54,093 nucleotides of DNA, taken from positions 1 through 54,093 of the IMG/VR virus record IMGVR_UViG_3300012931_000024; one strand, written 5' to 3'. Position numbers and translations under genes: made by a program. Below are positions 29,593-54,093 of this stretch, piece after piece (the stretch's first letter is position 1; every line of letters begins with the position of its first letter). This stretch comes from a virus. The notes under the pieces were generated by a model. It was not told the DNA's origin and did no database searches. It saw only the letters and a program-made list of their open reading frames with translations.

Positions 29593-31603
29593 TTTTAACA
29601 ACCTCCTCAATTTCATTAGCGATTTTTTTGAGTTTCAACATTTCCTCTCGAAATTTCACCATTCCGAGAGAATCTTCTTGGGGCGATTCAACTTCAATTT
29701 CAAGGGGAGCCTTAGCCAAAAATTCTTGGATTTTGGCAAGCATGGACTTGACTTCCTCTTTAATAGTCCCAGCTAACCATTCTTTATCTTGTTGACTCAG
29801 AATTAACTCAAACTTGGTCTCCCTTTCACCAACCTCAAGTTTATTATCGGAGTCAAATGTTTCCTCTTTTGTTTTAACTAATCTTCCTTCTTTGAAAGTG
29901 AAAGAAGAAATAACTACTTTTCCTTCATCTTCACCCTCAATCCATCTCTTTTCTTTGAGATTAAAATCCTTCTCAGAGAGGTCCAAATTAAATGTATTTG
30001 AATAAAATTCCCTTATTCTCTTTTCAGCATCCCCTTCTTCCTCTAGGGTACAGCCTCTTGTTATTTGGGAAATTACAATTCCATCCTCCTCATTGTAATC
30101 CCCATGCAAATGTACCTGTACTCCTTGGGGAACTGAATTTAACATTTCCTGAGCTTCACAGGTAAAAGATATTTCAATAGAAGTAGTTCCGGTAGCCGCT
30201 TCAAAACTGCCATTATGGTCCTTACAATGTTTTCGAGCTTCGGAGGCAGTCCAAGTATCCTTATTATAGCGATAAGCCTGTTCTGCCCAACTATCTTCCC
30301 CTTTCTTCTTACCAAAAATGATGGAATATTCTTTTCCATCATGTTCACGCTTACCACGGCGGAACTTTTCAAAATCATCAGGATTTCTTAATCTGCAAGA
30401 ATGTTCATTGGGATATGGTTTCAAACCCTCTTCAGGGAGTTCTTCCGTAATTTCTTTAAGAAATTCCTCATCATACTCCGCTTCTGCATTGTAAGTCGGG
30501 GGTTCTTTGTCAAATTTCTTGTAATAGGCTACTAAGAAACTATAACAAGATTTTCTATCATCTCCCAAGTCAGCCCCACCACGAGCCCCATTAACAGAAC
30601 CCATTGCCTTATTGACGCCCCCCCAAACCGCGGTAAGAGTTCCATCAATGACTTTAGCAAATGGCAGAATATATGCCCCTTTAGTATCGGCATTAACTCC
30701 AGATTTTTGATAAACAAAACCTTTCTTATATTTGGAGAAGTCGATTTTTCCATCAGTGGTTGCCCAATTTTCAATTGAAGTCCGAGCAGCAGCCCCATCC
30801 CATTCCCCCGAATCATTAGTCGGGAGGTTTCTTGAACCACATACTGCCTTTATTTCATCCTCTTCATTTTCAAGTTTTTCTGGAACTTGAACTTGGACAG
30901 GTCTTTCTTCATCAATTACTTCAATTTCACCTTTAACTCTGAGTTCCTCCAGAATATCATCCTTCGTCTTTAAATCCTCCAATCCACCAGCATTAAAACA
31001 ATTAAGAAGGTTTTGAGTTAGTAATTCATCACCAGCAAAACCTTTAATTGCATTTTGGAGAGCAGAAGGATTAGAAGGAACAGGACAACCTGAAAGTTCA
31101 AGTAATTCCTGTTTGATATATTCCCGACCATATTGCCACATCCAAGGCTCATCCTTGGGAGGATCTTCTCCTTCAGGCTTTTCTAACTTATTCCATTTAT
31201 AAGGCAAAAACCCAACACTACTAGCATTGATAATTTGTTGCTCATAGAGTTGGAGAATCATGTCAGCAAAAGGATTAAGCCCTTCAGTGGGAAAACGAAT
31301 GTCTTTAAACTCAAGTCGGTTAGGATTACGTCGGCGGATAAGTTGGGAAGTTGCGCCGAGAGGAACTGAAGAATAATTATGCGCCCAAAGAAAAACAGGA
31401 TTTTTCAGATAATTTTCCAAAATCCAACCGCTAACCCTAATAATATCACCATCTCGGTCTCTGGTTTCATCTGAACCGATAATAGTCAGGGTTCGCTTTT
31501 CTAAATTGACCCCTTTTACAATACTGGTAAAATCCTGTACATATACTTCCTTATTGTTTCGGAGAATTGGTTTCTCATCTGGACCTACCAATACATAACT
31601 CAT
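29579..31603 (-). CDS. Prohead protease fused to extra domains and a scaffold-like tail
   Basis: The first about 140 of 674 residues are an HK97-type (S78) prohead protease, with the histidine in WAHNYSS (His75) and the serine in NASSVGF (about 128-129). Two inserted segments follow: one around CGSRNLPTNDSGEWDGAAAR, then one with NEHSCRLRNPDDFEKFRRGK and SEARKHCKDHNGSFE. The last about 110 residues are coiled coil, like a scaffold. The product is about three times the usual protease length. It overlaps portal and capsid genes by a few bases. Confidence 0.88.
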   Translation of the reverse strand: MSYVLVGPDEKPILRNNKEVYVQDFTSIVKGVNLEKRTLTIIGSDETRDRDGDIIRVSGWILENYLKNPVFLWAHNYSSVPLGATSQLIRRRNPNRLEFKDIRFPTEGLNPFADMILQLYEQQIINASSVGFLPYKWNKLEKPEGEDPPKDEPWMWQYGREYIKQELLELSGCPVPSNPSALQNAIKGFAGDELLTQNLLNCFNAGGLEDLKTKDDILEELRVKGEIEVIDEERPVQVQVPEKLENEEDEIKAVCGSRNLPTNDSGEWDGAAARTSIENWATTDGKIDFSKYKKGFVYQKSGVNADTKGAYILPFAKVIDGTLTAVWGGVNKAMGSVNGARGGADLGDDRKSCYSFLVAYYKKFDKEPPTYNAEAEYDEEFLKEITEELPEEGLKPYPNEHSCRLRNPDDFEKFRRGKREHDGKEYSIIFGKKKGEDSWAEQAYRYNKDTWTASEARKHCKDHNGSFEAATGTTSIEISFTCEAQEMLNSVPQGVQVHLHGDYNEEDGIVISQITRGCTLEEEGDAEKRIREFYSNTFNLDLSEKDFNLKEKRWIEGEDEGKVVISSFTFKEGRLVKTKEETFDSDNKLEVGERETKFELILSQQDKEWLAGTIKEEVKSMLAKIQEFLAKAPLEIEVESPQEDSLGMVKFREEMLKLKKIANEIEEVVKNATH

Positions 31604-33423
31604 GAATCGTCTCCTTCTTTTTTAGGCTCCTCAATTGCTCTAAGGCAATTTATGGAAGCAAAGTCAAAAGCACTCAAAACTTCGGCTTTCACCAGATTTT
31701 TTACTTCCTTATCAGCCAAGTTAAAAAGTTGACGGATTTTCTTATCAATCTTTTCTTTATCAGTTTCCCTCTGAATTGAATTAAGAACTTCCCTGTGTAT
31801 TTCTGCTACTATTCCAGTAAAAACCGTTTTCCGTTCTTGGATAAATCTTTCCTTTGCTTCTTCTGATATTATAAAGGAATGAACATTGTCAAGCGTAAAA
31901 TCGAATGAATCCGAAAAAAATTGACGACCATTATCTATCAAACTTTCCACCTCATAATCAATTGTTCGATGGAAACGCAAAATATCTTCATCAAAACTCA
32001 CATTTAAAAAGGATTCAATCCCATCGTTCCTAAAAATCCTCAAACATTTCGACCTCATATCGAAAAAGAATTTTCGATATTTATCCACAAAACGATTCAT
32101 ATTTGGATTACATAAATTGAGAAAGTTTGGAATTCCCTTAGACAATAGCCTTTGTATATTCTGAAATTGATTATTAACTGGAGCATCTACCCCAGGAGGG
32201 GAAGGAACATGCTGTCCTGGATTAATAATAGCACCTTGATTAACTGGCATCATATTTACCGGAACAAATGCCACATCACCCCAATCTTTCTCATCAAATC
32301 CCATATGAAAACGGCGGTTAAGTTCATTTCGGGTAAATCCCATCCGAAATAATCTTTCCATCGTTTTAACAGCGGTATCGGTATCATCATGCAAAGCTTC
32401 AATAGTGGTTATATCAAATTCATACCGTAAATTTTGTCCACTCGGAATAAGTCCAAAGGATAAAGCATCTGCAATCATCCTCATTAATGGTAGACAAGTG
32501 CCCATCCACCATTCTTTTCTTTCTTCTTTAGCAATTGCATAATTTAAATTTTCTGCTTTTGAGAGAATGGTTCTTTTCATTCCCCAAATACGCATGATTG
32601 CATCTTCATCGGATTTCCGAAGTTCAATAAAATCCATGTCTTTATGAGAAGGTGAAACTCCTTGGTAAGTCATACCCTGTTGCAAAATAGCGATTTCATG
32701 CGCTTTTCTATAGCCTTGATGCTTTTCTCTCCATTGAGCCCTAGTCTTCTCAATTACATCATTATGAACCTTTCCAGGAGCACTTAAAACACCTCCAGGC
32801 ATTGCTCCAGAATCAAAGAAAGCATGATTGTAACGAGAGGATTTATAAAATTCTAAAATAGGAAGACGACCAGCAGTAGCCGGAGCAAGTCCTTCTATTG
32901 TATGGTTAGGATTATGAAATTTCAAATGTAAAACATCTTCCGATTTTAATTTTATTGGGCTTTGATTATCGCTAGGCCGATATTCCCAACCGATTAAATG
33001 ACCTGTTTTTGAATCAGTTACATAATCCATATATTTCCATCTAGCTATCCAAAGAGAATCAGGAATAGTAGGAGTCGGAAAAGGAATAATACAAACATTC
33101 CCATCTATAAGCCAATTGACAATCACCCCCTCAAGAAATAAAATTCTATTGGTCATATAATTAGGACGAGTAATCACCTTTTGCAAAGGATGATTATCCG
33201 GAGCTGGGTCACTTCCAGTTCTAGAGAACTTCATCAAACGTAAAGGGGTTTGAGCAATGGCTTTTGCAGTATAACTAATACAAGAGTAAGCCAATTCTAC
33301 CCCTGTATAAACATCATTCATTACTCCTTCTTCATCAGGTGGTTCACCCTTTACATATAACCAATTTTGAGGAAAATCAATAACGGATTTTACCGTAGTC
33401 AGAAGTCTACCTAACCGATTCAT
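31600..33423 (-). CDS. Portal protein, HK97-type, with extended C terminus
   Basis: The 607 residues begin with the usual portal N terminus and contain LAYSCISYTAKAIAQTPLRL, HLKFHNPNHTIEGLAPAT and a conserved FTRNELNRRFHMGFDEKDWG. After about residue 430 an extra helical region follows, ending VKAEVLSAFDFASINCLRAI, which vaguely resembles a truncated MuF domain. The portal is the dodecameric DNA gate at the capsid vertex. Its start overlaps a small membrane protein stop. Confidence 0.92.
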   Translation of the reverse strand: MNRLGRLLTTVKSVIDFPQNWLYVKGEPPDEEGVMNDVYTGVELAYSCISYTAKAIAQTPLRLMKFSRTGSDPAPDNHPLQKVITRPNYMTNRILFLEGVIVNWLIDGNVCIIPFPTPTIPDSLWIARWKYMDYVTDSKTGHLIGWEYRPSDNQSPIKLKSEDVLHLKFHNPNHTIEGLAPATAGRLPILEFYKSSRYNHAFFDSGAMPGGVLSAPGKVHNDVIEKTRAQWREKHQGYRKAHEIAILQQGMTYQGVSPSHKDMDFIELRKSDEDAIMRIWGMKRTILSKAENLNYAIAKEERKEWWMGTCLPLMRMIADALSFGLIPSGQNLRYEFDITTIEALHDDTDTAVKTMERLFRMGFTRNELNRRFHMGFDEKDWGDVAFVPVNMMPVNQGAIINPGQHVPSPPGVDAPVNNQFQNIQRLLSKGIPNFLNLCNPNMNRFVDKYRKFFFDMRSKCLRIFRNDGIESFLNVSFDEDILRFHRTIDYEVESLIDNGRQFFSDSFDFTLDNVHSFIISEEAKERFIQERKTVFTGIVAEIHREVLNSIQRETDKEKIDKKIRQLFNLADKEVKNLVKAEVLSAFDFASINCLRAIEEPKKEGDDS

Positions 33424-33585: not shown

Positions 33586-35190
33586 TTATGCCCAAGCTAT
33601 TAAATCCTGACCAGAGATTAGTTCGTCTTCAGCAAAAGATAGCATTAGACAATCTGCTCTATCAGGAGAACGTCCTATTTTTTTCTTCAGGGTATCTTTA
33701 TCTGAAATTTTCATTTTTCCTTCACTCATGAATTTATCTGTGGTAATCTTAGACAATTCATGACCAAGTTCCCAATCATTAATAAATATCTTATTTTCAT
33801 GAAACATGGTTCTTAATTTCCAATAATTTTGTGCCCTTTTATTAATGAATCTCACCCTATCATCACCAGGAACCTCATCTGCACCTTCCTGAGAAATAAT
33901 GCTATTTACAGGATATCCCCTTTCCCAAAGCATATCCACTACACCACCACCAAGTCCTGTATCATCTACATTGATACAACTTGGTTCTTGTTTCAAAGAT
34001 TTAAAATTTTCATAATGGAAAATAATTCTTCCTACGGTCTCAGTTTCTCTTTCCTTTTCAGTTACTTCTAAAATATCAAAACGTCCTGACCTTCTACGGG
34101 CACCAATTACTGTACTATCATCTCCGAAACGAGCCACATCACAACCAAGAGTAAGAACAGGGTCATTCTTTTCCTCTATTATTTCCTCATAGAAATCAAA
34201 AGCCCTTTGGATATATTTGAATGGAATTAAAACATCTCCGCCATCAATCGGAAATTGACCTAAAACCTTTATCCGAAATAAATTAGAATCCCTCCCCCAC
34301 TTTTCTGCCATCTTATCAGGCCAATCCTTATCACATAATTTTGGATAAAAATTTATACCATGTCTGACATTGGGAGTATCATAACAAGAGATTGATATAC
34401 AATAATACCCAGATTTAGGATTGAAACCATCTGTATCTTCCATTCCTTCAAAAATTTCAGCAAATTTACTAGTTTCATCCAATGGGTTTCCAATAAGAAG
34501 GACAAAAGTAACTGGGGAAGAAAGAATACCTTCTATTACATCAAAAACAAGATTCTCAACCCCACCAGCCTCATCAATTATTACAAAAATGTTTTCTTCA
34601 TGGAAACCAGCAATATTGGCAGCCGGGTCTTTAGTGCTAAATCCTTCAACAAACCATTTTTCTCCAAGTTCTAAAGAAGTCTGAGTAAGCTTTCCACCAA
34701 GTTTTCTTGGGGCATTATTATAAGCATCATGAATTTCACCCCAAAGAACCCTTTTAACTTGTCGAAAAGTAGGAGCAGTAGTGATTCCTAAGGCGTGCCA
34801 GCCATAAGCTAAATATAATACAAGCCTAGCAGCTAAAAATGATTTTCCTGTTGAATGTCCAGATTTTACAGCAACCTTCCTATATTTAATCAAAGCCTCA
34901 CTAATCTTCTTCTGTTTGCTCCAAAGGGGAGGATTTCTTCTATCTTGATTAGGACGGGGAGCATCATTAGGCCATTTTTCTACATTAATTCCAAGTTCAT
35001 GCCAGAAAAAATCCAATGGATTCTTTTTGTAATTTTTAAAAAAATTGATTTGCTCCTTCAAAGCTTGTTCAGTTAATTGGTCTGGAATAAGACTATCAAA
35101 ATTAATATTACCAAGGTCAAGGGAAGGCTTAAAAAGTCTCCCTGTTTTCATTTTTATTTCCTGGTGTTGTCTTTTTTTCAAACGTGTCAT
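33586..35190 (-). CDS. terL: Terminase large subunit
   Basis: This 534-residue packaging motor has a Walker A motif SGHSTGKS (110-117), Walker B IFVIIDEAGG (Asp206-Glu207), a coupling motif around LLIGNP, and an RNase H-like nuclease. Nuclease acidic residues are Asp351 in GCDVARFGDD, a DDTGLGGG segment near 408, and PDRADCLML near the C terminus. It cuts and translocates phage DNA into proheads through the portal. The annotated ATG has a weak binding site; an ATG 13 codons later, after CAGGAAAT, is a credible alternative. Confidence 0.95.
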   Translation of the reverse strand: MTRLKKRQHQEIKMKTGRLFKPSLDLGNINFDSLIPDQLTEQALKEQINFFKNYKKNPLDFFWHELGINVEKWPNDAPRPNQDRRNPPLWSKQKKISEALIKYRKVAVKSGHSTGKSFLAARLVLYLAYGWHALGITTAPTFRQVKRVLWGEIHDAYNNAPRKLGGKLTQTSLELGEKWFVEGFSTKDPAANIAGFHEENIFVIIDEAGGVENLVFDVIEGILSSPVTFVLLIGNPLDETSKFAEIFEGMEDTDGFNPKSGYYCISISCYDTPNVRHGINFYPKLCDKDWPDKMAEKWGRDSNLFRIKVLGQFPIDGGDVLIPFKYIQRAFDFYEEIIEEKNDPVLTLGCDVARFGDDSTVIGARRRSGRFDILEVTEKERETETVGRIIFHYENFKSLKQEPSCINVDDTGLGGGVVDMLWERGYPVNSIISQEGADEVPGDDRVRFINKRAQNYWKLRTMFHENKIFINDWELGHELSKITTDKFMSEGKMKISDKDTLKKKIGRSPDRADCLMLSFAEDELISGQDLIAWA

Positions 35191-46340: not shown

Positions 46341-47066
46341 CTGACCTCCTTGCTTTGTCTTTTTATCTTTATTATATCATATTATATCAATAAAATCAGT
46401 AAGTTCCATCATAATCCTGGTTGTTTTTGACGAATCCTGGATATGATAGAAACCTCCCGGGAGGATGAGAAAAATCATGGCTTCTTTGTAAACTATTTAA
46501 AATAATGGAATGTAGATTTCATGGAGTTAAAAAAATTTTCGGAGCGAAGATAGTTTTTGAGTACGCACTACAAAACTAACCTCCCGGCTGGATAAGGCTT
46601 ATAGCCCAAGTCCTTCCGGTAGGAGAACCTATAGTCCTGGTAGTTGGAAAGTCTATGCGGAAGGTCGGCGGTCCGGTGGGAAAATGGTTAATGGTGGTGG
46701 TAGAGGTGGACTGGAAATGGTAGTGGCTGGTTGGCCGGTTCGGGAATCCTTCCCATGGTGGTTGGCTCGGCGGCTGCTGTGAGATTTTTTGGATTCGGCG
46801 GGCCCGTCATGGAGCCTGGGTCATTTCTGTAAATCCGTGACAACCATCTATCCTATAGTACCCATTCTATATCCAAACAGGCTGATTCTCTTTCTTTGCT
46901 TTTAATTTAATCTGAATGGGAAAGATTTTAAGGTATTTTCTACCTGGGAAACGCTTAAATCCAAAAAAATGAACACCACGTAAAAAACTTCTTTACACCC
47001 TCTTTTGTTTTGTGATAGCATGAAAAATGACCCGAAAATATCAATGTTTCTGGAAGAAACAAGGCT
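46341..47066. other. Gene-free GC-skewed stretch with short repeats
   Basis: No convincing gene in about 725 bases. It holds a perfect CCTCCCGGGAGG palindrome (46453-46464), a related CCTCCCGGCTGG near 46580, the CCTTCCGGTAGG copy at 46612-46623, and a TGG-rich tract around 46680-46790. A weak minus-strand frame (46902-47174) needs a TTG start and has no ribosome binding site. It may be a regulatory or transcribed non-coding region. Confidence 0.5.
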
Positions 47067-47211: not shown

Positions 47212-47508
47212 ATGAAAATCATTCGTTTCCAACGCCCCAAGCCCGACATGAGAGATGTCAAGAAATGTGACTCATGTGGAGGAGGGGTGAATTTCCATTC
47301 AACCAATCATGCTTTTTATCTGTGTTCTGGCTGTAAGAACACAGTTGACGCTCGGCTTAAAAATGGTGGGATTGATACTAAGGGGTTCTGGAAGACAGTT
47401 AATCCTATAGTTCAGACAGTCCCGAAAGTGTTTAAACCATACAGGCCGAGAAAAACAAGAAAGTGTGTTCACACCGCTTTCGCTTGCAGCATAGCTGCCC
47501 CCAAGTAA
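47212..47508 (+). CDS. 98-residue zinc-ribbon protein
   Basis: KCDSCGGG and LCSGCKNT, about 19 residues apart, form a zinc ribbon; the C terminus is basic (KPYRPRKTRKC). The start overlaps the preceding tiny frame (ATGA). The stop codon lies in a hairpin (47500-47523) at the edge of the structured RNA. Function is unknown. Confidence 0.65.
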   Translation: MKIIRFQRPKPDMRDVKKCDSCGGGVNFHSTNHAFYLCSGCKNTVDARLKNGGIDTKGFWKTVNPIVQTVPKVFKPYRPRKTRKCVHTAFACSIAAPK

Positions 47509-48126
47509 TCTGCTCTATTTGGGAGAGAAAGGTCTTTGACAATTAGGCACAGAGGGAGTTATCACACTCCAGAGAACGTGTAGAGTTACTGGAAGAGAAG
47601 TAACTGACAGGTCTCGTCCAAAAGTGAAAAAAGATAGACTGGGGGTGATAGTCGGAGCTATTGCTGAGGTCTATGACTTGGTGAAACGAAAGGGTTGTGC
47701 TGAGTAGGATTAGCCAGGTTGCTGATTCAAGGCCAGAAAAATTGATGCTTGGGAGAGAAGCAGGAAACTGCGAATCGCCGCACATGCATCTGCAAGGCTT
47801 AGAATCGTTAGGATTGGTAGTGTGGCTGATTACAAGTGTAGGCCAATTCTAACAGTTGCTGGTGCCGAAAAGGTCAACAAATCATCGGGAAAATTAATCG
47901 CAGATGGGTTGACTGAGTAGGGAGAAACTTGCAGGAAGACAAGCGTTAAGGAGATGCCTGATAGGCCGCCCGATGTCGAAGTTTCGCATTGGTTGAGAGC
48001 GCTAGTGAGCCTCCCTAAACAACTAACCCATTTGCGTTAAGCAGATGGTCGGCTTGAGACATGCAAACTAAAGCGGCTGGTGCTGCTGGCGGTAGTCTTG
48101 TCAGCGGTATCAGCCGCTTTCTTGTT
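47500..48126 (+). ncRNA. Long structured non-coding RNA (about 550-620 nt)
   Basis: No frame is open, yet strong helices run throughout. They are 47500-47507/47516-47523, 47555-47559/47566-47570, 47584-47590/47599-47605 (7 bp), 47634-47639/47669-47674, a GCAG-GAAA-CTGC tetraloop near 47760, 47807-47817/47843-47853 (11 bp, one G-U), 47873-47878/47908-47913, 47918-47924/48011-48017 (long-range 7 bp), 48028-48035/48041-48048 (8 bp, one G-U), and a terminator. TTGACA at 47536-47541 may start it near 47571. Size and phage setting recall ROOL or GOLLD RNAs, but I cannot match a consensus. Confidence 0.7.
48071..48126 (+). terminator. Terminator hairpin at the 3' end of the structured RNA
   Basis: AAGCGGCTG (48071-48079) pairs exactly with CAGCCGCTT (48111-48119), with an inner CTGGC/GTCAG helix, and is followed by TTCTTGTTT. 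It closes the non-coding RNA just before the L7/L12-like gene. Confidence 0.8.
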
Positions 48127-48165
48127 TGCCTCAGGTGAACAGAAAAATATCTTAAGGAGGACAAA

Positions 48166-48480
48166 ATGGAACTTGTAAGGGTCAAAAGTTACGATGAGAA
48201 AGAAGGGAAGATTCCACCAATCAGGGCAATTCGAGCAGTTACTGGTTGGGGGCTGAAGGAAGCCAAAGACTTTGTTGAAACTTTACCCCAATCCTTAACT
48301 GTCAAAGGCATCGAGCAGATTGTCACCCTTGCCAAAGGCGGATTGGATGTTGAGGTCACTGAGGTTCAAGAAGCTCTTTGGGATATCCTACTCAAGGCTG
48401 CAAGACAGGCTTTGAATGAAAACCAGGCTGACTTGGCCTATGACATTTTAACCCTTTGCAGAAAGTATGACTTCTTTTAA
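48166..48480 (+). CDS. Ribosomal protein L7/L12 C-terminal-domain-like protein
   Basis: The first about 65 of 104 residues follow the bL12 C-terminal domain: VRVKSYDEKEGKIPPIRAIR, then TGWGLKEAKDFVE (signature GLKEAKxxVE), then a last strand LDVEVTE. The N-terminal dimerisation domain and hinge of bL12 are missing; instead a roughly 38-residue helical tail follows. The domain normally recruits translation factors on the ribosome stalk. AAGGAGG precedes the ATG. It is next to the structured RNA, so a translation-related role is tempting but inferred. Confidence 0.85.
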   Translation: MELVRVKSYDEKEGKIPPIRAIRAVTGWGLKEAKDFVETLPQSLTVKGIEQIVTLAKGGLDVEVTEVQEALWDILLKAARQALNENQADLAYDILTLCRKYDFF

Positions 48481-51872: not shown

Positions 51873-52769
51873 ATGGCAGAAAAGTTACCGATTGTTTGTA
51901 TGCAGGTCAGAACCAAGAAGTGGCCTGGGCAGACAAAACTAAAGGCCGAAGACATCGGGCTGGATGAAGATGATGTGGCTGAAAATGTAGTTCTCGGTCA
52001 TAGAAAGCTTTATCCTGATGAATGGCGGACTCGGTTCAATTCCATTCATCAAAAGGCTGTTGCTTTTCTGAACAAAAACAGCCTGCCTTTCATTCTTGAC
52101 ACAGTTCGGGCGGTGCCAAGAATGAGGATTGATAAAATCGTCGGCGGTCTGGCTGCATTCAAAAACCAATACATGAATGCAGTGGATGAATTTTTGGCCG
52201 ATGTGGATAACATTCGGGTGAAGATGTTAGAAGATTTTCCTGACACCTTTAAACCTGAAGACATTCCAGAAAGGGCCAAACTTCGTGAGAAGTTTAAAAT
52301 GTGGTGGTTAATCTTTGAAGTAAAAGGACCTGATACCACGCAATTGGAACAGGATGAATTGATTTCGGCTTATCATCAAGCCCAACAAGAAATCAATGAA
52401 AAACTGGCCCAATTCGTGGAGGAAAGTGTCATCCTTTTACGGAAAAAGATTTCCCAAGTCGTGGAGGGTTTACGGGACAAGCTGACAGAGGGGAAAATCG
52501 TCAAGAATACCTCTCTGGAAAGTGTCCGTAGTGTTCATGACTGGTTCAAGGAACTCAATGTTTTCGGAGACAAGAGCATTGATTCAGCCTTGGAAAAACT
52601 GAAGGCGGCTTTGCCTGAAGATGCAGCCTTCTTCAAAGGCAACAAAGAATTGCAAACCAAGATTTCTGAGTTGGCGGATGAAGTTGCAAAGAAGGCTGCT
52701 GACTTGGATGACTTGGGAGAAATTACTGGCAAGTATATCAGAGTGGTCGAAGTTGAGGAAGCGGCATAA
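51873..52769 (+). CDS. DUF3150-like helical protein
   Basis: The 298-residue protein resembles DUF3150 phage proteins: a VQVRTKKWPGQTKLK start, a long helical middle (YMNAVDEFLADVDNIRVKML), and a C-terminal coiled coil. Family function is unknown; members occur in phage early operons beside AAA+ ATPases, as here. AAAGGAGG precedes the ATG and its stop overlaps the next start. Confidence 0.6.
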   Translation: MAEKLPIVCMQVRTKKWPGQTKLKAEDIGLDEDDVAENVVLGHRKLYPDEWRTRFNSIHQKAVAFLNKNSLPFILDTVRAVPRMRIDKIVGGLAAFKNQYMNAVDEFLADVDNIRVKMLEDFPDTFKPEDIPERAKLREKFKMWWLIFEVKGPDTTQLEQDELISAYHQAQQEINEKLAQFVEESVILLRKKISQVVEGLRDKLTEGKIVKNTSLESVRSVHDWFKELNVFGDKSIDSALEKLKAALPEDAAFFKGNKELQTKISELADEVAKKAADLDDLGEITGKYIRVVEVEEAA

Positions 52770-52948
52770 TGCCAATCCTTTACTGGTGTATCCGAAACAC
52801 CAAAACAAAAGACTACTGGAGCAACGAAACAGGCTGGACAGAGTTTCCTGAACTCTGTACCCTTTTCACAAACTCCATGAAGGAGAAAATTCCTCATATT
52901 CCTCTTGATGGAAAATGGGAAGAATTTTCTCCCCCAGCTAATCTCTAG
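52769..52948 (+). CDS. 59-residue hypothetical protein
   Basis: Starts in the TAATG overlap with the DUF3150-like gene. Aromatic, compact sequence (ILYWCIRNTKTKDYWSNETG, then WTEFPELCTLF). Probably translated with its neighbour; function unknown. Confidence 0.68.
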   Translation: MPILYWCIRNTKTKDYWSNETGWTEFPELCTLFTNSMKEKIPHIPLDGKWEEFSPPANL

Positions 52949-52967
52949 CGGTCGTTGAGGCAAGGTG

Positions 52968-53016
52968 CAGCCGAAGTATGGGCTGTCACTTTGCTTGAGC
53001 GTAACCCGCTCTATGG
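52968..53016 (+). promoter_or_regulatory. Structured leader of the AAA+ ATPase gene
   Basis: CAAGGTG-CAGCC pairs with GGCTG-T-CACTTTG (5+7 bp with a bulged T and one G-U), and is followed by GAGCG-TAACC-CGCTC. The helices fill most of the gap between the 59-residue gene and the ribosome binding site of the ATPase gene, so they may tune its translation. Confidence 0.5.
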
Positions 53017-53052
53017 GTAATTAAAACCCCAATAAAAAGGAGGTTCGCTATT

Positions 53053-54093
53053 ATGGAAAACGGAGATGGCGGCGGTTTCTTAAAACCTTATGCCAGAGCA
53101 GTTTACCCATGCATTTGGGTAAGAACCGTCGAACCAGAAAGATTTATTGAGTCGGCGGTAGAGGAAATGAAAGGCTTCCGAACTTGTGTCACTTGGGACT
53201 ACAATCGTGGATTCCGTCAAGAACCTCATGATGGAATGGAAAGATTTAACTTTTCTGTGGGAGAATTGAAGCCAAGGCTTTTTGTCAAAGCAAATCCAGA
53301 ACAGGTCTTAACTCGGGCCGCATCTGGGCCGGAAAAAGCTGTTTGGTTTTTGATGAATTATCAATGGGATATTGAGGCCCCAACGGTAATTCAAGAGATT
53401 TTGAATCTCCTTCCCCTTCTCAAAACCAATAAGATAATGCTTTGTGTAGTGTCACCGGTATTGAAATTGCCGGTAGAACTGCAAAGAATCTTTACGGTCC
53501 TTGATTTTTCTTTGCCTAGCAAAGGGGATTTAAAAGTAATCCTCGACCGCTGTTCGCAAGGAAATAAAATTGAGGTCAAAAACGAGAAGGAAATTTTGGA
53601 AGCATCTTCTGGCTTGACTTGGGAAGAGGCTGAAAATGCTTATACTCTTTCCATTGTCAAGTGCAAGGATTTTAATGCTCGGTATATTACTGAGCAAAAG
53701 GCGCAAATGATAAAGAAGTCAGCGGCTTTGCGTCTTGCCCATTTCAAAGAGACCTTTGAAGACATTGGAGGTCTTGATAACCTCAAGAATTGGTTGTTAA
53801 ACAGATTTATTAATCGTCAGGCCGATTTGCCTTGGCGGGGAGTGCTGCTTTTAGGCGTTCCTGGCACAGGGAAATCTACTCTGGCAAAAGCATTAGCCAA
53901 TGAAGTCAAACGGGCTTGTGTGGAATTAAGCATGGCAAGCATGTTTGGTTCACTTGTTGGCGAAAGTGAAGAAAGGATGAGAAATTCTTTGGATGTAATT
54001 GATGCCATGGAACCTCTTATCCTATTCGTGGATGAAGTTGAAAAAGGTCTCGCTGGCGTTGGGTCCGCTCATGAAGGAGACTCCGGCACGACC
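53053..54093 (+). CDS. AAA+ ATPase, Ycf46-like (partial, runs off the window)
   Basis: The 347 codons present start behind AAAGGAGG. The N-terminal about 220 residues resemble the Ycf46-type pre-AAA domain (YPCIWVRTVEPERFIESAVE; AVWFLMNYQWDIEAPTVIQE). Then comes the AAA+ core, with FEDIGGLDNLKNWL, Walker A GVPGTGKST near residues 273-281, and Walker B ILFVDEVEK near 325. Sensor and arginine-finger regions lie beyond the window. Next to a DUF3150-like gene, it probably acts as a remodelling ATPase. Confidence 0.85.
   Translation, partial: MENGDGGGFLKPYARAVYPCIWVRTVEPERFIESAVEEMKGFRTCVTWDYNRGFRQEPHDGMERFNFSVGELKPRLFVKANPEQVLTRAASGPEKAVWFLMNYQWDIEAPTVIQEILNLLPLLKTNKIMLCVVSPVLKLPVELQRIFTVLDFSLPSKGDLKVILDRCSQGNKIEVKNEKEILEASSGLTWEEAENAYTLSIVKCKDFNARYITEQKAQMIKKSAALRLAHFKETFEDIGGLDNLKNWLLNRFINRQADLPWRGVLLLGVPGTGKSTLAKALANEVKRACVELSMASMFGSLVGESEERMRNSLDVIDAMEPLILFVDEVEKGLAGVGSAHEGDSGTT

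Follow-up and report, generated by a model that had tools for sequence, protein, structure and literature searches.

A large structured non-coding RNA conserved between two environmental phages and likely outside the catalogued RNA families

A total of 54,093 bases of an environmental phage (IMG/VR virus record IMGVR_UViG_3300012931_000024, the whole of which is referred to here as the window) were analyzed for the nature of a stretch of ~620 nt on the plus strand (47500-48127). The preliminary description of the locus had proposed a structured non-coding RNA of roughly 600 nt at 47500-48126, without an open frame, ending in a terminator and possibly representing a new class. The locus raises the question whether such an RNA is real, whether it belongs to a known family and what it might do. 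The structural genes of the phage are encoded on the minus strand (terminase, 33586-35190; portal, 31600-33423) and the RNA is flanked by small rightward genes that start near position 47212.

A conserved fold without a conserved reading frame

The minimum free energy of positions 47500-48126 is -226 kcal/mol, compared with -186 ± 7 kcal/mol in dinucleotide shuffles (z = -5.7), whereas the reverse strand reaches a z of only -2.0 and a control non-coding stretch (46500-46900) a z of -0.2. The folding energy is far below that of the shuffles on the plus strand only. The G+C content of the same positions is 47.7%, compared with 39.6% for the whole window.

A terminase search identified a single phage that carries a homologue of the RNA (IMGVR_UViG_3300038679_000131, 98,838 bp, hereafter the sister phage), with a terminase that shares 84% amino acid identity with that of the window phage. 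The sister copy is located on the minus strand (G002:67345-67921), in the same genomic place and in an order that is colinear with the window. The best blocks of the two RNAs are 74-78% identical and include invariant stretches of 16-29 nt. The small genes around the RNA show only about 45-65% protein identity and few matches at the DNA level, and the RNA is therefore conserved beyond its surroundings. The whole comparative sample consists of these two sequences. When viral contigs were searched with exact 17-18-mers taken from the two best-conserved stretches, only the sister phage was recovered, and among the loci returned by a 14-mer scan it was again the only related one. A 20-base pattern had no match in genome contigs, and blastn searches of phages and plasmids yielded no credible hit. 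The zinc-finger-like protein encoded upstream, the terminase and a DUF3150 protein, used as baits, recovered nothing beyond the sister phage and a single fragment of 8 kb that contains no match to the RNA. The L7/L12-like gene downstream served as a further marker and led to 62 viral loci; 48 of these records were searched for the RNA without a credible copy.

Thirteen helices that were checked by hand contain 63 unchanged pairs, 11 pairs with one-sided changes, 23 pairs with two-sided compensatory changes and no broken pair. The ability of both sequences to form a helix was one of the criteria for its selection. The absence of broken pairs therefore does not count as independent evidence, which is provided by the shuffles and controls. 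RNAalifold applied to the pair identified 34 two-sided and 19 one-sided changes, and the two-sided count compares with 14.3 ± 4.0 in column-shuffled alignments (energy z about -12 to -14; -13.6). The excess remains when the terminator is left out (30 two-sided changes vs. 12.3 in shuffles, z = -6.9), and an exhaustive list of stems contains 18 with at least two compensations where 7.2 ± 2.0 are expected. The shuffles preserve gaps and conservation but not dinucleotides, which makes the exact z values generous. However, six coding controls of equal length, analyzed on both strands, display z values of -0.1 to -6.0 and are not enriched in two-sided changes, indicating that the non-preserved dinucleotides do not create the signal. 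The antisense strand of the RNA gives a weaker echo (z = -5.5), as expected. The fold is conserved by compensatory mutation between the two phages.

A protein hidden in the region was considered and rejected. On the sense strand of the window RNA no open stretch exceeds 64 codons, the sense frames contain many stops, and the pairwise alignment contains indels of 1, 2, 5, 7, and 14 nt, which excludes a shared protein. Open stretches of 101-105 codons exist on the antisense strand, at positions that do not correspond between the two phages. A large structured non-coding RNA is generally expected to preserve its helices through compensatory changes and to lack a conserved reading frame, and positions 47500-48127 represent a real, conserved RNA of this kind. 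The extent, the lack of an open frame and the terminator given in the preliminary description thus held, with conserved helices that span 47501-48119, compensatory changes in one homologue and an unrecognized protein excluded.

Architecture of the RNA

The RNA can be divided into a 5′ part (P1-P6), a central domain that is closed by P7 and holds P9, and a 3′ part (P12, P13, and P14). It comprises nine helices that covary and a long-range helix, together with invariant loop motifs that are repeated and a strong terminator of its own (table 1).

Table 1. Features of the RNA and its flanking genes. Two-sided, one-sided and broken refer to base pairs compared between the two phages.
Feature	Position	Strand	Remarks
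Zinc-finger-like protein gene, 98 aa	47212-47508	+	Constant upstream neighbour of the RNA
Structured non-coding RNA	47500-48127	+	Folding z -5.7; sister homologue; consensus fold; 3′ end at the terminator (likely), 5′ end uncertain
Helix P1	47501-47506/47517-47522	+	3 two-sided, 1 one-sided, 0 broken; overlaps stop of upstream gene
Helix P2	47534-47538/47550-47554 (47534-47554)	+	Invariant in both phages; contains TTGACA
Hairpin P3 (GGAGT/ACTCC)	47555-47570	+	Stem invariant, loop variable
Helix P4	47572-47575/47612-47615 (47572-47615)	+	1 two-sided; closes hairpin P4a
Hairpin P4a	47584-47590/47599-47605	+	5 of 7 pairs two-sided, 0 broken
Helix P5	47634-47640/47668-47674	+	2 two-sided, 0 broken; inner loop length varies
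Helix P6	47675-47682/47713-47720	+	1 two-sided, 2 one-sided, 0 broken
Motif CTGAGTAGG, copy 1	47700-47708	+
Long-range helix P7, 9 bp	47743-47751/47940-47948	+	1 two-sided, 2 one-sided, 0 broken
Hairpin P9	47808-47816/47844-47852	+	4 two-sided, 1 one-sided, 0 broken
Motif CTGAGTAGG, copy 2	47913-47921	+
Helix P11	47920-47924/48011-48015	+	Core invariant in both phages, no covariation
Hairpin P12	47970-47976/47986-47992	+	2 two-sided, 0 broken
Hairpin P13	48028-48035/48041-48048	+	Homologue has a hairpin of different sequence and other length in the same place
Intrinsic terminator P14	48071-48127	+	21-bp stem, T-rich tail; 4 two-sided, 5 one-sided, 0 broken
L7/L12 C-terminal-domain-like gene	48166-48480	+	PF00542, E 2e-9; downstream of the RNA

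Helix P6 encloses an invariant stretch of 29 nt (GTGAAACGAAAGGGTTGTGCTGAGTAGGA). The motif CTGAGTAGG occurs twice per RNA in both phages, with a spacing of ~210 nt, and is absent elsewhere in the window. Forcing the formation of P7 costs only 2.3 and 1.4 kcal/mol, and the counts for P9 were obtained after a structure-based alignment of the hairpins. A comparison of the RNA with the phage genome for antisense targets revealed only a few scattered 12-mers without a pattern.

Two details of the preliminary description fared less well. The 7-bp helix 47918-47924/48011-48017 is present in the window but the homologue keeps only its GGGAG/CTCCC core (5 bp, P11), and since this core is unchanged covariation neither supports nor refutes the helix. 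In addition P11 crosses P7, so either the two form a pseudoknot or one of them is wrong. The GNRA hairpin at 47760 (GCAG-GAAA-CTGC) is present in the window, but inspection by eye did not reveal it in the homologue, which makes the loop a probable non-conserved feature, judged on that by-eye comparison.

Comparison with known RNA families

None of the 4227 Rfam families, including the group I and II introns, matched at gathering score, and a search of the window and the sister phage at E ≤ 10 gave nothing credible, only chance matches far below gathering score. The covariance models of ROOL (RF03087) and GOLLD (RF02032), searched alone, matched neither phage at E ≤ 10; the OLE model (RF01071), searched without a positive control, likewise had no match at E ≤ 10, and the model of a group II intron domain (RF01998) had no match. 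As a positive control, the ROOL model finds the ROOL RNA of Ligilactobacillus salivarius pMP118 with 130 bits (E 1e-29).

ROOL and GOLLD are cage-forming RNAs of phages or prophages that are often located near tRNA islands (PMC12286853); the cage of ROOL is octameric. The window RNA resembles ROOL, a phage or prophage RNA of ~550-660 nt without an open reading frame, with an ornate fold and of unknown function (PMC12286853), but differs from it in the lack of a model match and in its location: the 54-kb window contains no tRNA genes, whereas a tRNA neighbourhood is frequent, though not universal, for ROOL. It shares with GOLLD the large size, the complex fold and the phage and prophage setting; GOLLD, however, often exceeds 800 nt and lies near tRNAs (PMC12286853), and its model is not matched. 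The window RNA likewise does not match the model of OLE, an RNA of ~600 nt that is part of a ribonucleoprotein complex (PMC9723947). A diverged ROOL, GOLLD, OLE or group I/II intron that is beyond the reach of its Rfam model would fit the comparable size and ornate fold as well as the terminator and the location in a phage. This explanation is very unlikely given that no family gave a credible match at E ≤ 10 in either phage and that the single ROOL, GOLLD and OLE searches were negative while the ROOL control was detected.

The preliminary description had not asserted membership in any of these families and had left room for a new class; this position is supported, as Rfam rejects membership. 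The RNA is probably outside every catalogued family and represents a new class of large viral RNA, a conclusion that rests on two sequences. It most likely constitutes a separate, new family of ornate, large phage RNAs that resembles ROOL and GOLLD in kind without belonging to either. The literature searched contained no account of it. Very few bacterial or phage RNAs of such size and complexity are known, and the recently solved large RNAs of this kind are RNA-only cages or dimers whose purpose is unknown. Having an independent family from a different phage lineage would make it easier to tell whether RNAs of this kind have a common function, and the RNA is a new target for structure determination. 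Environmental phages still hold uncatalogued large structured RNAs.

Genomic neighbours, transcript ends and possible functions

The placement upstream of an L7/L12-like gene, as the preliminary description had it, is true in the window but the link is not conserved: the sister phage has no counterpart of this gene beside the RNA and carries a 57-aa gene instead. The L7/L12-like gene is thus an accidental neighbour. The constant neighbour is the zinc-finger-like gene (98-101 aa, 48% amino acid identity) that lies directly upstream of the RNA in both phages. The 98-aa protein has a weak match to Pfam ZZ (E 0.002, below the cut-off) and to phrog_10532 (E 6e-4), and an AlphaFold model calculated without an alignment has a pLDDT of 43.

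The conserved 21-bp terminator likely defines a discrete 3′ end of the RNA, although no expression data exist. At the other end, the covariation of P1, which extends over the stop of the upstream gene, suggests that this gene and the RNA are transcribed together. In the sister phage the zinc-finger-like gene is preceded by strong promoter-like sites of the TG-TATAAT type. Alternatively, the TTGACA within P2 might be a promoter -35 box, a possibility based on consensus only. The sequence is located near 47536 and a weak -10 (TATC..) follows 18 nt further on, so that the RNA may instead start near P4, as far as can be inferred from sequence alone.

These observations bear on the idea that the region is a structured 3′ UTR of the zinc-finger-like gene that stabilizes, localizes or regulates the mRNA and perhaps binds its own product. 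In favour of this are the same gene directly upstream in both phages, the strong promoter-like sites upstream of it in the sister phage and the covarying P1 that begins at the stop codon. However, the protein (48% amino acid identity) is less conserved than the RNA, and the size and the many invariant stretches would be unusual for a 3′ UTR. We regard this explanation as unlikely.

The main rival is a cis-acting leader, attenuator or antitermination RNA that sets the passage of polymerase into the downstream cluster. The gene that follows begins ~40 nt past the terminator in both phages (48119-48166 in the window) and has a good ribosome-binding site, and no promoter-like sequence is visible between the two in either phage. 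The downstream operon might therefore be reached by read-through or antitermination, and a cis role is possible. The RNA is moreover flanked by a tightly packed operon on one side and, on the other, by the upstream gene, which in the sister phage is preceded by strong promoter-like sites, and it shares with the phage antitermination RNAs put and EAR a structured RNA upstream of terminators and operons. Those RNAs are short, about 65-125 nt, and no sequence relation to them was found; ~620 nt with invariant stretches of 16-29 nt is far more than known antitermination RNAs such as put or EAR comprise. The first downstream gene differs between the two phages while the RNA stays, which argues against a leader of one particular gene, and the 21-bp terminator stem has no evident competing antiterminator.

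On balance we lean towards a stand-alone, trans-acting large structured phage RNA of an undescribed family, a reading whose functional part is inferred only. It is favoured because the excess of compensatory changes on the sense strand (34 vs. 14.3 ± 4.0) is absent from the controls, because the helices checked by hand contain 23 two-sided changes and not a single broken pair, because the 16-29 nt invariant stretches exceed the needs of a simple leader or terminator, and because the DNA is more conserved than the neighbouring small genes and the conserved terminator marks a 3′ end. The trans-acting RNA would be transcribed within the rightward gene cluster together with the zinc-finger-like gene, or from the weak promoter near 47536, and would be released or processed as a stable species ending near 48125. 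It may then act as a folded particle, either as a homo-oligomer like ROOL and GOLLD or bound to a protein (e.g., the adjacent zinc-finger-like protein), with the conserved purine-rich motifs, above all the two CUGAGUAGG copies, as putative contact sites. Oligomerization and protein binding are inferences only, expression as a discrete RNA is inferred from the conserved terminator alone, and the 5′ end is undetermined. A bolder reading, which can only be called possible, is a new RNA class that resembles ROOL and GOLLD without being related to them and forms an ordered particle, perhaps with the zinc-finger-like protein, that would act on the host during infection.

Several features of the surrounding genomes were noted. 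The region 46560-46800 is G-rich and non-coding, shows no excess folding and has no DNA match in the sister phage. Relatives of PF00542 are common in environmental phages (the 62 loci above). At the right end of the window (51873-54093) a DUF3150 gene, whose protein has no relative found in named phages, is followed by a probable AAA ATPase gene that is cut by the window end; these genes share 68-78% DNA identity with the sister phage. The sister phage also encodes a pentapeptide-repeat-like protein (repeated ANLxxADLxx) near its RNA (L086:7727-8251).
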